NCBI RefSeq assembly: GCF_019931755.1
Contig: NZ_CP082918.1
Span: 2,708,001 to 2,772,000, forward strand
DNA length: 64,000 bases
Source: Sutcliffiella horikoshii
GTDB lineage: Bacteria > Bacillota > Bacilli > Bacillales > Bacillaceae_I
Direction: 5' to 3'
The notes under the pieces were generated by a model. The model had not been told where the DNA came from. It searched no databases and was given only the letters and a program-made list of their open reading frames with translations. Shown here one piece after another: positions 2,500-15,316 of this stretch; position 1 is the first letter of the stretch; the number at the start of each line of letters is the position of its first letter. The position numbers and the translations under genes were made by a program.

Positions 2500-3957
2500 T
2501 TATTTTCTAGTTAACGGAAACAATACGCAGTCTTTAATCGTTTCACAATCCGTAAGTACCATTAGTAATCGTTCAATCCCAAATCCCCACCCCGAAATTG
2601 GTGGCATTCCATACTCCATAGCCAATAAGTAATCTTCATCCATTTCCATGGCTTCTGTATCACCGCCATTTTTCAAGATGGCTTGGGCCTCTAATCGTTT
2701 TCTCTGTTCAACAGGGTCTACTAATTCTGAATAGGCATTGATGATTTCAGAACCATTTACTACTAATTGAAAACGGTCTGTAATTGCTGGATTGTCATCT
2801 TTTGCTCTGGCTAAAGGTGATAAATCAATTGGATGGTTAATTAAAAAGGTTGGTTCTATTAAATATGGGCGACACACTTTTTTGTATAGAAGGTCAATGA
2901 AATTCCCTCTTCCCAATGTCTCGATATCCTCGGCTTCTAAATAAATATTTCTTCGTTTTGTTTCCTCATGTAATCTTTTCACATCTGGATACAAATCAAT
3001 ATCTATGCCTGTATCTTTTAAAATTAATTCTCTAAACGACACTACATTCCACTCTAATGAAAAATCAATCGATTGTCCTTTTATCCTAATAACTGTTGAG
3101 TCAAATGTTTGTTTTAGGACATATACAATCATTTCACGCATGAGCTTCATCGTATCTTCATAATTCCAATAAGCTGCATAGCCTTCCACCATGGTGAATT
3201 CTTGAAGATGTTGAGGGCTAATCCCTTCATTTCTAAAGCATTTTGCAAATTCGAATACTTTTGTAAAGCCTCCTACAATAAGCCTTTTCAAATAAGTCTC
3301 TGGAGCAATTCGTAAATTTAGTTCCGTATCTAGCGAGTTATGATACGTTTTAAACGGGCGTGCTAACGCACCTGAGGAAGTATGTTGCAATACAGGGGTT
3401 TCCACCTCCAAGAAGTCTTTTTCCTCTAAAAATCTACGAACAGCACGCACTAATTTTGTTCGCATTAACATACGATTTTTTGTTTCTTTTGTCATCATCA
3501 AATCTATATATCGTTGTCTATACCGTGTGTCTATGTTGCTTAATCCATGCCATTTATCCGGTAGTGTGTGTAACGCTTTCCCAAGCAGTTCATATTTTTC
3601 AATACGCAGCGTTTTTTCATTTGTTTTCGTAGAATACATCTTCCCTTCTACACCGATAAAATCGCCTATATCCAAATAATCGAGGAAATCATTCAAAGCC
3701 TGCTCCCCAACCTCTTCTTTTTTTAGAAGAAGTTGCAACTTACCTTGTATGTCTGAAATAGTGATAAAACTGAATTTACTAAACTGACGAATCCCCATGA
3801 TTCTTCCTGCAACTCGAACACCTGCTGTTCCATCCTCAAGTGTAGAGGATTCGTAAAGTTCGTAATTTGTCTGGAACCTTTCAGGATATACTGGAATCCC
3901 CTTTGATCTTAAAGCCAATAATTTCTCTATTCTGAGGGCTGTTTGTTCTTGACTCAT
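2500..3957 (-). CDS. lysS: Lysyl-tRNA synthetase, class II
   Basis: This enzyme charges tRNA-Lys with lysine using ATP. The 485 residues carry an N-terminal OB-fold (about 50-150: VRVAGRIMGIRQFSKFSFITI) and the class II core: motif 1 around FLEVETPVLQ, motif 2 FRNEGISPQHLQEFTMVEG, motif 3 GWGFGIERLLMVLT near the C-terminus. The start is the ATG at 3957 with GGAG nine bases before; an upstream ATG at 3972 overlaps that site. Motif 2 differs from the usual Bacillus housekeeping sequence (which I recall as FRNEG-STRHNPEFT), and the gene has a T-box leader, so this may be a second, regulated LysRS rather than the housekeeping copy, which is not in this window. Confidence 0.93.
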   Translation of the reverse strand: MSQEQTALRIEKLLALRSKGIPVYPERFQTNYELYESSTLEDGTAGVRVAGRIMGIRQFSKFSFITISDIQGKLQLLLKKEEVGEQALNDFLDYLDIGDFIGVEGKMYSTKTNEKTLRIEKYELLGKALHTLPDKWHGLSNIDTRYRQRYIDLMMTKETKNRMLMRTKLVRAVRRFLEEKDFLEVETPVLQHTSSGALARPFKTYHNSLDTELNLRIAPETYLKRLIVGGFTKVFEFAKCFRNEGISPQHLQEFTMVEGYAAYWNYEDTMKLMREMIVYVLKQTFDSTVIRIKGQSIDFSLEWNVVSFRELILKDTGIDIDLYPDVKRLHEETKRRNIYLEAEDIETLGRGNFIDLLYKKVCRPYLIEPTFLINHPIDLSPLARAKDDNPAITDRFQLVVNGSEIINAYSELVDPVEQRKRLEAQAILKNGGDTEAMEMDEDYLLAMEYGMPPISGWGFGIERLLMVLTDCETIKDCVLFPLTRK

Positions 3958-4017
3958 TTTTATCAACTCCAATTTTTCATTTATCTAATTTCCAGCTGCC
4001 ATACTATTTTAAAAAAC

Positions 4018-4330
4018 AAAAAAACTCCCACCCCCAAGATTATTCATCTTGAGGACGAGAGTTGTTAACTTCGTGGTACCACCCCAGTTTGTTGACATGT
4101 TACCATATCAACCTCTTTAGGTACTTCTGTTTTTAACAAACAAGTATACCCTATCTCTATAACGGGAGATCCCGTCGCAGTATCACTAAGAAATCTTAGA
4201 TCCGTGCAAAGGCTCCGAGGCTTTTTTCATTAAAATCATTATTGCTTCTTCTCACCTACCGAAGCTCTCTGGAAACAATGAATCTTAATTACTCTTCTCT
4301 TCACAGCCGTACATTCCGTATGTTTTTTAG
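4018..4330 (-). promoter_or_regulatory. T-box riboswitch of lysS, Lys (AAA) specifier
   Basis: On the minus strand the leader holds the T-box core GGGTGGTACCACGA (about 4069-4085) followed by a terminator stem CAAGATGAATAATCTTG-type with a T run at 4022-4062. Upstream it has the AGAGAG and GGTAGGTGAGAA elements of Stem I. Aligning with the tyrS leader at 34.7 kb (TGAA-TAC) puts the specifier at 4223-4225, TGAA-AAA, a lysine codon. Uncharged tRNA-Lys should bind and favour the antiterminator. Confidence 0.9.
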
Positions 4331-4463: not shown

Positions 4464-5420
4464 GTGATTGATCAAATAATTCCAGCGCTAATTGCTTTTA
4501 TTATTGTTGCAATTTTATCTCCGCTATTTATTGACGCCTTGAGGAAGCTTAAATTGATACAACCAATAAGAAAAGAACTTCCTTCCGATCATCAATTAAA
4601 GAAAGGCACTCCGTTAATGTTCGGTATTATTCTGTTTGTAGGAATTATACTATCGATTCTTTTTTCACCTACTCCCTTGATGTACTTTTTGTGTATTACG
4701 TACATTCTATTTAGTTTTATTGGGTTTTTGGACGATTTTTGGAAGGCTTCGCGTCAAGATCCAGGGGGAGTATCAGGCAAGACTAAACTTATTCTTCAAT
4801 TTACTTTCACAGGTACTTTGCTTTATTACGTAATTGTCGAACTAGGCATAGGCACCCAGATTAATATTTTTAAAGACATTACTTTAGATTTACCGATGGT
4901 GTTATATGTCATTGTCATTACCTTATTTGTTGTGGGATCTGCAAACGCCATCAATTTCACTGATGGATTAGACGGTCTTTTAGGAGTAGTAGCAATCCCT
5001 ACATACTTTTTCTTTTTTGTGGTTTCAGACAGACCAGAGGTTCAACTTTTTAGTTTAATTATGATTGGATGTTTACTGGGCTTTCTCATCTATAATATAT
5101 ACCCTGCAAAAGCTTTTATGGGTGATACAGGATCATTAGCTATAGGTGGTTCCTTATCCTTTCTTGCCGTTCTCGAAAAGGTTGAAATTCTAATTCCCAT
5201 TTTGTTTTTCATATATTTTGCTGAGCAACTGTCGGTTATTTTACAGGTTTCCTCGTTTAAACTTACGCATAAACGCATCTTCAGAATGACACCGATTCAC
5301 TATCACTTTGGCTTAAAATATGGTTGGTCCGAAACGACTATTGTCACAGTGTTTGGATTAATATCTTGGATTTGCGTTTTTATTTGTTTAGCTTATTGGA
5401 GATTTCTTCTATATCCATAA
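4464..5420 (+). CDS. mraY: MraY-like phospho-N-acetylmuramoyl-pentapeptide transferase
   Basis: This 318-residue integral membrane protein has about ten helices and the full MraY motif set: GFLDDFWK (about 87-94, catalytic Asp pair), NAINFTDGLDGL (about 165-176), AKAFMGDTGSLAIGG and the C-terminal TPIHYHFGLKYGWSE loop with the HxHxE-type pattern. It should transfer phospho-MurNAc-pentapeptide to undecaprenyl phosphate, making lipid I. The start is GTG at 4464 with AAAGGAG ten bases before; an ATG inside the spacer reads to a stop after three codons. It stands alone, divergent from the lysS leader and away from any division/cell-wall cluster, so it is probably a second mraY. Confidence 0.88.
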   Translation: MIDQIIPALIAFIIVAILSPLFIDALRKLKLIQPIRKELPSDHQLKKGTPLMFGIILFVGIILSILFSPTPLMYFLCITYILFSFIGFLDDFWKASRQDPGGVSGKTKLILQFTFTGTLLYYVIVELGIGTQINIFKDITLDLPMVLYVIVITLFVVGSANAINFTDGLDGLLGVVAIPTYFFFFVVSDRPEVQLFSLIMIGCLLGFLIYNIYPAKAFMGDTGSLAIGGSLSFLAVLEKVEILIPILFFIYFAEQLSVILQVSSFKLTHKRIFRMTPIHYHFGLKYGWSETTIVTVFGLISWICVFICLAYWRFLLYP

Positions 5421-5652: not shown

Positions 5653-5690
5653 AAAAAAATAAATCCAGCCCCTTTTTTAGTGGCTGGATT
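5653..5690 (-). terminator. Strong rho-independent terminator after the structured RNA
   Basis: AATCCAGCC (5662-5670) pairs with GGCTGGATT (5682-5690), and on the minus strand a TATTTTTTT run follows. It ends minus-strand transcription that has passed the DIP1984 gene and the structured RNA. Confidence 0.85.
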
Positions 5691-5699
5691 CTTTACTAT

Positions 5700-5938
5700 T
5701 ACTCTTACATTAGTTCATAAGAAACTCCCCTACTCCACCCTCACGAATATGAAAATCAATACCAGGTTGTAAGTTGTTTATGTAAATTGTTCTGGTGTAA
5801 CATTAATGGGTATAAATTTTGACGGAGGACTCGAACCTCTTGGGGTCACCCCGAAACCCGTACCATTAATGACAACTTTGACCTGTTGCAAGGTTCGGTA
5901 TTCGCCTTTTCATTTTCGCTACCAGCTTATCTTATGAA
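5700..5938 (-). ncRNA. Candidate structured RNA with tRNA T-arm-like tip
   Basis: Minus-strand RNA between the DIP1984 stop and the terminator contains nested complementary segments. From outside in: 5930-5938 with 5714-5722 (9/9 pairs); 5907-5918 with 5744-5755 (11/12); 5897-5902 with 5758-5763 (6/6); 5881-5884 with 5764-5767 (4/4); 5872-5878 with 5771-5777 (7/7); 5863-5871 with 5801-5809 (9/9). The tip holds two hairpins: GGGGTGACCCC (5842-5852) and GAGG-TTCGAGT-CCTC (5825-5839), whose loop is an exact tRNA T-loop closed by G53-C61-type bases. A UUACACCA follows the inner stem. It is not a normal tRNA: no anticodon arm is visible and 14 nt separate the T-arm from the stem. It may be processed from the upstream mRNA or have its own promoter, which I cannot see. 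Confidence 0.65.
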
Positions 5939-6393
5939 GAAAGTAAATCGGTTTTCCAATTAAGCTCCTGGATCTTCACATCATATAATCGATATTTCTG
6001 TGACAGTTCATCCACATGCTTTTGCATTTCTTTTACACTGATAGTTGTGATGTATTTGATTTCTGCCCGTGAATAACGCTCAAGTTTCATGGATGCTTGG
6101 TCAAGAAGTTCGCTATGAATCTTCCGTTCCTGGCCAATCAAATCACGAGATGCCAATGCATCTGCAAGTGACTCCATTTTATCAAATTTCGTTTTTAAAT
6201 TGGTCTTGTTTATTTGCTGGATCAGAAGTCTTAACTTCTCTAATAGCTCCGTTAATTCCTTTAACAATATCTTTGGATCTTCGTTTGGTTCGTCCCCTTC
6301 CTGCACCCTCACATTCTGCAGCAACCTATTCTTCAATTGCTCCACACGCTTTTGATAATCTGCCCGTAGTATTAATGCCTCAGCTAATTTCAT
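5932..6393 (-). CDS. DIP1984 family protein (septicolysin-like)
   Basis: This 153-residue, highly charged, all-helical protein has the DIP1984 look: MKLAEALILRADYQKRVEQLKNRLLQN at the start, a middle NKTN segment, and a C-terminal DELSQKYRLYDVKIQELNWKTDL. It has no signal peptide, so the old name septicolysin (a cytolysin) is probably misleading. The start ATG at 6393 follows AGGAGGAGA. The gene's last codons form one side of the outermost stem of the structured RNA downstream, tying the two together. Function in the family is not established as far as I know; association with the tRNA-like RNA suggests an RNA-binding or RNA-repair-related role (inference). Confidence 0.85.
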   Translation of the reverse strand: MKLAEALILRADYQKRVEQLKNRLLQNVRVQEGDEPNEDPKILLKELTELLEKLRLLIQQINKTNLKTKFDKMESLADALASRDLIGQERKIHSELLDQASMKLERYSRAEIKYITTISVKEMQKHVDELSQKYRLYDVKIQELNWKTDLLSS

Positions 6394-14758: not shown

Positions 14759-15316
14759 TTAATCTTCGTTTTCAATCAACTTACCATTCTTATCGTAGTA
14801 TTTATAATCGAATGAAAAATTCTTTTCCTCGTTAGGCATCTCTGTCCAAGTTGCTGAGTTTTTGTATAAAGCAAACTCTTCAACGAATAAGTGTTGATTG
14901 GCAAGCAACTCCATTTTTGAGATTTCGTTATCATAAGTAGCAATGGTAAGAATAAATAGATTGGTATGATTGTCCATCCTAATACTTAAGGGGATTAAAA
15001 AGTGAGATAGCGGCTCTTCTCTTTTTTCTGCAGAACTCCATTTATAATTGCCATACTTATCTTTTATAAAATGAATGTATGCTGAAAGGTTATTGCTTAA
15101 AAATGCAACTAACCTCTCATCTCCTACATCTTCGATATCTATAATTTCTATCGAAGTCTTCTTAAACATATCTATCGACTGGATTGTTTGGACAATCGAT
15201 TCCTCGTCATTTCCATTTATGTAAAAGGAACTATTAAGGTAGCTAAAAGCTAAGAAGATTACTCCAATCACCAAGGCCAAAAACCATAAAGAAAGCTTTC
15301 TATTTTTAATTTGCAT
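14759..15316 (-). CDS. Membrane-anchored extracellular protein, unknown
   Basis: The 185-residue product has one N-terminal transmembrane segment (about 8-28) and an extracytoplasmic domain of 155 residues, beta-rich, with KYGNYKWSSAEKRE in the middle and a YYDKNGKLIENE end. The ATG at 15316 follows TTAGGGGGAG. No family recognised. Gene order and strand suggest it belongs to the run of envelope genes at 13.4-16.1 kb. Confidence 0.6.
   Translation of the reverse strand: MQIKNRKLSLWFLALVIGVIFLAFSYLNSSFYINGNDEESIVQTIQSIDMFKKTSIEIIDIEDVGDERLVAFLSNNLSAYIHFIKDKYGNYKWSSAEKREEPLSHFLIPLSIRMDNHTNLFILTIATYDNEISKMELLANQHLFVEEFALYKNSATWTEMPNEEKNFSFDYKYYDKNGKLIENED

Follow-up and report, generated by a model that had tools for sequence, protein, structure and literature searches.

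A window of 64,000 nucleotides from Sutcliffiella horikoshii (contig NZ_CP082918.1 of assembly GCF_019931755.1, positions 2,708,001 to 2,772,000; all coordinates below are those of the window) carries a gene of the DIP1984 family (5932–6393, minus strand) encoding a protein of 153 amino acids and, directly behind it on the same strand, a structured RNA whose core occupies positions 5727–5924. Judged by comparison across relatives, the fold of this RNA is real and covarying and comprises a rod formed by helices P1 and P2, an H-type pseudoknot, a second pseudoknot between a hairpin loop and a distant strand, and an optional T-arm of the transfer RNA (tRNA) type. The same comparisons indicate that the RNA, which is outside every RNA family tested, is hardly ever missing where a strong DIP1984 gene is present, and a protein family of unknown function thereby gains a candidate RNA partner. 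We hypothesize that gene and RNA form a free-standing two-part unit acting in tRNA or translation maintenance, a reading to which we give slightly less than an even chance.

The evidence for the fold is comparative. An initial scan of genome contigs with the DIP1984 protein returned 23 loci, the best-matching one from a named genome belonging to S. horikoshii (88% protein identity), and shared motifs lie behind the gene in nearly every one of them; further loci were drawn from plasmids, viral contigs and additional genomes. A covariance model, R1, was built from 24 sequences (alignment A3), and 71 RNAs were aligned to it (alignment A4). The RNA of the window, itself a seed of R1, covers 196 positions of the model and scores 198.8 bits. 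In A4, which was fitted to the nested structure and thus favours nested pairs, with stem 2 of the H-type pseudoknot and the loop pairing absent from the model, the 38 proposed pairs are 88.5% standard and 37 of them vary at both bases. Their covariation score stands at 0.545, versus 0.178 in shuffled alignments, no measure is reached by any of 500 shuffles, and the score falls to 0.04–0.08 when the partners are slid. Restricting the analysis to nested pairs in the 53 RNAs with an anchor score of at least 33, the set also used for the counts of the H-type pseudoknot and of motifs, gives double changes in 28 of 28 pairs and 92.9% of cells paired, and for 23 RNAs aligned independently with MAFFT, the structure derived from that alignment has double changes in 12 of 18 pairs. 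A preliminary description of this DNA had assigned a structured RNA on the minus strand to the DIP1984 gene, and covariation in the 71 relatives bears this out. That the structure exceeds chance follows from the comparison across relatives, the energy of the single sequence being unremarkable: alone, the window sequence folds no better than its dinucleotide shuffles (minimum free energy −58.1, z −0.48, equalled by 64 of 200 shuffles), and single-sequence folding energy was rejected as evidence for the RNA on account of that z value.

All elements of the fold lie on the minus strand. The 5' strand of P1 (5907–5919) pairs with 5743–5755 in two helices with 94.4% and 90.9% of cells paired, and all 12 tested pairs change on both sides in the 71-RNA alignment. 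A conserved GGUARY (5918–5923), in which G-G-U-A reaches 98–100% in the 53 RNAs, lies at the base of P1. Between P1 and P2 lies an internal loop, whose 5' side is a conserved GGCGA (5902–5906; G at the second and fourth positions in 100% of the 53 RNAs and A in 94%) facing UGA at 5756–5758, and which looks k-turn-like by eye only. P2 (5897–5901 with 5759–5763) is 98.2% paired, and five of its five pairs change on both sides. It is followed by the H-type pseudoknot, in which stem 1 joins ACCU at 5891–5894 to 5881–5884 and stem 2 joins GCAAC at 5885–5889 to 5872–5876. This pseudoknot was parsed in 45 of the 53 RNAs at a score of at least 8 (shuffled mean 1.8, maximum 5), and stem 2 occurs in relatives as CCGGCG/CGCCGG, UAUAACU/AGUUAUA or CACGU/ACGUG. 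On the 3' side, a conserved G-rich motif, GUGAGGGUGGAGUAGGGG (5727–5744), contains GAGGG in 100% of the 53 RNAs.

The D-arm-like hairpin P4 (5843–5859, loop UUCGGGGUG) is 90.7% paired, with double changes in four of four pairs. It had been described as a GGGGTGACCCC hairpin, which misplaces the stem: the conserved stem is GGGU/ACCC (5856–5859 with 5843–5846), and the GGGG lies in the loop, where GGGU (5848–5851) is the complement of an ACCC at 5808–5811. This loop–strand pairing was counted in the 46 of the 53 RNAs with a recognisable anchor, seven being left out. In 39 of the 46 the hairpin loop holds the exact complement of the first four bases of the CCC motif, whereas permuted partners are expected to match in 23.3 and reach at most 30 matches in 200 trials; the partner sits in P4 in most RNAs, the script having picked a match elsewhere in a few. 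The pair sets encountered are GGGC/GCCC, GGGU/ACCC, GGGG/CCCC, GAGC/GCUC and GGAC/GUCC. Of the nested segments proposed earlier, P1 and the outer stem are confirmed in the sequence and the inner stem is doubtful; 5872–5894 forms the H-type pseudoknot instead of the nested pairs that a fold of the single sequence gives. Two columns of this inner AAUGG/CCCAUU stem pair in only 9/57 and 4/57 RNAs and three in 47/57, 47/57 and 40/58, and the stem is also doubted because its CCC strand pairs with the P4 loop. The outer stem, P0, joins TTCATAAGA (5930–5938) to TCTTATGAA (5714–5722) by nine of nine pairs and, as noted at the outset, reaches into the last codons of the DIP1984 gene, overlapping its end and stop codon. 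Among the 34 loci segmented by the anchor search at a score of at least 33, a flanking helix of the P0 type with at least nine pairs (G–U allowed) is found in 12, versus 9.0% of shuffles (binomial p 2e-5), although four of these come from closely related members of the window's genus and are hence not independent. On this count P0 is an optional part of the structure.

The tRNA likeness of the RNA is confined to a part of it. The hairpin GAGG-UUCGAGU-CCUC at 5825–5839, recognised earlier as an exact tRNA T-loop hairpin, is a tRNA-type T-arm under a rule demanding a stem of at least four pairs, a G53–C61-type closure and a seven-nucleotide loop UUCRANN. The same rule finds a T-arm in 36 of the 71 relatives (shuffled mean 0.055), with 96.0% of the stem cells paired where it is present, and five more RNAs carry the T-loop on a stem that is shorter or imperfect under the rule. 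Rather than lacking covariation and a conserved T-arm, homologous loci thus combine strong covariation with T-arms in four phyla, namely Bacillota, Chloroflexota, Actinomycetota and Bacteroidota. As the T-arm is absent from several RNAs (for instance those of L032, L041, L043, L044 and L063), it is a module on the core and not the essence of the RNA; it is genuine but optional, gained or lost as a unit on an ornate RNA. Among 39 RNAs in which a loop match was found, some loops being mis-assigned by the script, an extra G precedes the pairing tetramer of the P4 loop in 20 of 27 with a T-arm versus 3 of 12 that have none (Fisher p 0.006), which is what a contact of that G with the T-loop, like the one in the tRNA elbow, would predict. 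A contact of this kind between the P4 loop and the T-loop is, on these counts, suggestive only.

The wider claim that the whole RNA mimics tRNA did not survive. About half of the RNAs are without an intact T-arm, no acceptor-like CCA end is seen, and the core is a rod with two pseudoknots. ARAGORN called no tRNA gene in the window and no cloverleaf with an anticodon, and none of the 4227 families of Rfam 15 exceeded its gathering threshold at the RNA in the window or in 20 diverse loci, the only hits in the latter being tRNAs outside the RNA; permissive Rfam runs on two stretches gave only matches far below threshold. The UUACACCA said to follow the inner stem is not conserved as such: it lies within a conserved UGUNACA motif, and ACACCA occurs in 4 of the 53 RNAs, and an acceptor or CCA mimic was rejected on these grounds.

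P1 is preceded by GGUARY and followed by GAGGGYGGG; both motifs vary hardly at all in the 53 RNAs, which were chosen by anchor score, and the two may be in contact, for example as a G-quadruplex. The compact double-pseudoknot core with its near-invariant unpaired GGUARY, GGCGA, UGUNACA and GAGGGYGGG is reminiscent of what is generally known of large ribozymes, and the RNA could be catalytic, with DIP1984 as its protein cofactor and tRNA or another RNA as the substrate. We consider this very unlikely: no site of cleavage or ligation can be discerned, and the Moraxellaceae forms (L021, L022, L033, L034, L064 and L065) have, by eye, neither G-rich flanking motif while retaining P1 and P2. The three Acinetobacter plasmid loci that were read (L033, L034 and L065) have an RNA without both G-rich flanks. 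A divergent second type of RNA (GGYGUAGC ... GCUGAGRGC ... GAGGGYGGG) is found behind DIP1984 in several Bacillota (L045, L046, L047, L049, L051 and L052); R1 matches it weakly or at its ends only, and orphan RNAs of divergent types were searched for with R1 only. Two further loci (L041/L057 and L042/L058) have two tandem DIP1984 genes about 2 kb apart with an RNA behind each, the RNA of L057 and L058 being without the 3' G-rich motif.

The RNA follows the gene closely across genomes. With R1 the RNA was recovered (E ≤0.01) from 59 of 65 sources, which include the 24 seeds of the model and several near-duplicates, and in the positive sources the RNA is on the same strand as the DIP1984 gene. 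Of the negative sources, L019 and L021 have P1 and P2 visible by eye, L055 and L056 encode a protein below the Pfam cut-off, and L070 and L071, both taken from a single viral contig, have no visible RNA. The RNA occurs in Bacillota, Chloroflexota, Bacteroidota, Pseudomonadota, Actinomycetota and Cyanobacteriota as well as on viral contigs, the Chloroflexota and Bacteroidota cases (L015, L016 and L020) being metagenome-assembled genomes and the actinobacterial, cyanobacterial and Paracoccus cases plasmids. Within the genus, gene and RNA are present in the identical 7 of 16 genomes, and in the other nine the best RNA score is E 0.0079.

In the larger searches, which scored few candidates per genome and so can miss weak RNAs, the association holds at greater distances. 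The RNA was found in 14 of 299 genomes sampled across the phylum, always adjoining DIP1984 and always among the 20 PF20935-positive genomes. Eighteen genomes of this sample exceed the PF20935 cut-off, and the four outside the RNA set are accounted for by G235, whose RNA was found under laxer filters (L054), and by G043, G238 and G310, which have the divergent second RNA type, R1 matching its ends only (E 0.001–0.002). Among 398 Bacilli, the RNA (E ≤1e-10) and the gene (E ≤1e-19) were each found in 24 genomes, 23 of them shared. G549 has an RNA under laxer filters (E 3.7e-5), and G628 has a truncated RNA, at the start of which are apparently the first 15 residues of DIP1984 (E 0.027), and which is probably a deletion relic. 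Marginal RNA matches were obtained in G613 and G661 (E 0.003 and 0.008). Twenty more Bacilli genomes have weak PF20935 matches. In ten the match exceeds the cut-off, and no RNA match was obtained in these; the three of them scanned under laxer filters (L152–L154) have no RNA either. The weakly matching Bacilli proteins (L152–L157 and others), which are without the RNA, are longer, at about 170–200 amino acids, and may constitute a separate family.

Such a distribution is also what a toxin–antitoxin-like or defence pair might display, in which DIP1984 would be harmful or active alone, restrained by its own RNA, and spread on plasmids and phages for that reason. The gene is patchy, as seen in the genus and in the 24 of 398 Bacilli with a strong gene; it is present on 371 plasmid records, 342 of them from Acinetobacter; and no strong intact gene in the class sample is without the RNA (one RNA being seen under laxer filters only), whereas damaged DIP1984 genes stand beside a retained RNA in G423, G391 and G491, sequencing error being possible in these cases. 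However, the longer coding part would also decay first by chance, the RNA lies behind the gene with no repeat array in front, four viral copies sit inside tRNA arrays, and the viral DIP1984 of L070/L071 is without a visible RNA. PADLOC gave no convincing match for three DIP1984 proteins (capH at E 0.02 for one), and the only clear Foldseek match of the protein is a structure of its own family. A toxin–antitoxin-like or defence pair is unlikely in our view.

The presumed protein partner is a clear member of the DIP1984/DUF6847 family, matching PF20935 with 178 bits (E 1.3e-52; cut-off 27) and NF038048 with 183.4 bits (E 2.7e-54; cut-off 70). Among a capped 8,000 candidates, 3,073 or more clusters belong to the family at E 1e-3, and in several database entries its proteins are named 'septicolysin'; one of the plasmid entries listed (H28) bears that name. 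An AlphaFold2 model of the window protein (mean predicted local distance difference test score 94.6) has four helices, which we read as two antiparallel hairpins. Its sole clear Foldseek match is 3KDQ, a Corynebacterium diphtheriae protein released in 2009 as 'functionally unknown' and the one solved member of the family (44% identity over 151 columns), and no ToxN-type nuclease is among the significant matches. The weak structural matches of each modelled hairpin include the arms of seryl-tRNA synthetases, at a level common for helical proteins, and this likeness is to be taken as a lead only. Two proteins of 268–273 amino acids, P0001 and P0002, consist of two tandem DIP1984 halves, and are similar to the viral contig without a visible RNA (L070/L071).

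Gene and RNA are probably one transcription unit, given the short gap between them and the terminator-like hairpin behind. The distance from the DIP1984 stop codon to the RNA has a median of 11 nucleotides over 47 loci and is 7 to 39 nucleotides in 43 of them and 135 in one, the remaining three being Acinetobacter loci with misplaced anchors; a stop-codon readthrough element was rejected by inference from these gaps. The terminator noted in the preliminary description corresponds to a hairpin with a U run at 5653–5691 (minus strand; minimum free energy −17.1, z −3.6), which a pattern scan did not list and which probably ends the transcription unit. The proximity of the RNA to the stop codon, together with an outer stem that in the window takes in that codon and the terminator-like hairpin that follows, would also suit a cis-acting 3' element whose only role is to control how stable the DIP1984 message is or how well it is translated, for instance through feedback of the protein on its transcript. 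In contrast, some RNAs on viral contigs are detached from the gene or duplicated, and the size, the two pseudoknots and the conservation of motifs across phyla exceed what, as a matter of general knowledge, feedback elements usually need, so that we regard a purely cis-acting role as quite unlikely.

No conserved third gene was found beside the pair, in agreement with the earlier suggestion of a stand-alone unit. Among 93 neighbouring open reading frames of 47 loci each Pfam family is represented at most three times, and TROVE/Ro60 is not among the 25 commonest of the 113 families represented there, families with a single member being incompletely listed. RtcB is absent from 16 of 16 genomes of the genus, and a tblastn search with one viral RtcB against 178 loci matched only its own contig. 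In the window, a class II lysyl-tRNA synthetase gene (2500–3972) with a T-box leader (4048–4313) lies near the DIP1984 unit on the minus strand, and an MraY-type glycosyl transferase gene (4464–5420, plus strand; TIGR00445, 240 bits) is located between the synthetase and the RNA.

The viral loci provide a different setting. In four of six RNA-bearing IMG/VR contigs (L066/L171, L069/L174, L072/L177 and L073/L178) the pair lies among 7, 42, 10 and 41 tRNA genes, respectively; L067/L172 has two RNAs, both behind the DIP1984 gene, and no tRNA gene, and L068, an Acinetobacter-type copy, has no tRNA gene within the flanks examined. A gene with an RF-1 domain is directly behind the RNA in L069 and L073, and in L066 an RtcB gene (E 3.5e-62) starts about 360 nucleotides behind the RNA, with a tRNA-Met gene between. 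The tie to RNA repair was observed on viral contigs only (RtcB on one, RF-1 on two), searches for both over the 178 loci giving matches confined to these contigs. A gap of about 300 nucleotides in L066 and about 140 in L073 separates the RNA from the gene, which, together with the duplicated RNA of L067, speaks for action in trans. Scanning viral contigs for sequence patterns yielded 11 stretches, of which only L166, from the same contig as L069, has the RNA (E 0.003) and DIP1984. The tRNA arrays of L174 and L178 hold 42 and 41 genes in about 12–17 kb, with one odd four-base anticodon call, and a possible second copy of the RNA is found at 14933–15082 (minus strand, E 0.002) of L173, an Acinetobacter-type viral contig.

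The viral settings, the modular T-arm and the fact that the RNA there can stand apart from its gene lend weight to a role in tRNA or ribosome maintenance. In such a mechanism, gene and RNA would move horizontally as a single two-part unit and be transcribed together, DIP1984, with its two antiparallel helical hairpins, would bind the RNA, and the resulting particle would act in trans, its target being tRNA or the ribosome. An elbow-like face could be formed by the P4 loop and the T-arm and recognised by tRNA-handling enzymes or by DIP1984 itself, and the particle may serve as a scaffold, decoy or chaperone when tRNA and stalled ribosomes are repaired or protected. Weighing against a role of this kind, cellular loci have no tRNA neighbours. 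More tentatively still, it is possible, if rather doubtful, that the pair represents an undescribed class of RNA–protein particle distributed over six phyla, plasmids and phages, in which DIP1984 joins an RNA that has two pseudoknots and a detachable tRNA-elbow module, and which cells and tRNA-rich phages employ in guarding, repairing or recycling tRNA and stalled ribosomes, in conjunction with RtcB- or RF-1-type enzymes where these are present. The viral setting amid tRNA arrays, RF-1 and RtcB points to an unrecognised step in the maintenance of tRNA and ribosomes.

No paper on this RNA was found, judged by titles and the openings of abstracts, and what appears to be new is the RNA class and its pairing with DIP1984, with a reservation concerning an SPFH-linked RNA. 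A 2016 survey by Burroughs and Aravind reportedly describes a tRNA-like RNA in SPFH/Band-7 RNA-repair systems with a scaffold-type protein; the DIP1984 unit differs in that no RtcB was found at its bacterial loci and no neighbour family recurs there. OLE RNA and its binding protein likewise represent a conserved ornate bacterial RNA tied to a protein, but the Rfam search gave no OLE match, and the DIP1984 RNA is smaller, has another fold and is spread over several phyla, plasmids and phages. With type III toxin–antitoxin systems such as ToxIN it shares a mobile RNA–protein pair and a pseudoknotted RNA. However, these have tandem RNA repeats before an endoribonuclease gene, whereas the DIP1984 RNA, of about 200 nucleotides, is behind the gene in the loci read, forms no repeat array and accompanies a protein in which no nuclease fold was found. 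Transfer-messenger RNA (tmRNA) with SmpB is similar in having a T-arm, a D-like arm, pseudoknots and a small protein, and two viral contigs have an RF-1-type neighbour, but the DIP1984 RNA has no visible acceptor stem or CCA end and is called by neither ARAGORN nor Rfam. The bacterial Y RNA YrlA carries a tRNA-like module (PMC7790460). DIP1984 is, in contrast to Ro60/Rsr with YrlA, a helical protein of 153 amino acids, and its RNA has a core in no Rfam family and an optional T-arm; on the other hand, both systems pair a protein with a small RNA that is encoded next to it and bears a tRNA-like module, and one viral DIP1984 locus is near RtcB. By analogy, the DIP1984–RNA pair may work somewhat like the Ro–Y RNA pair.
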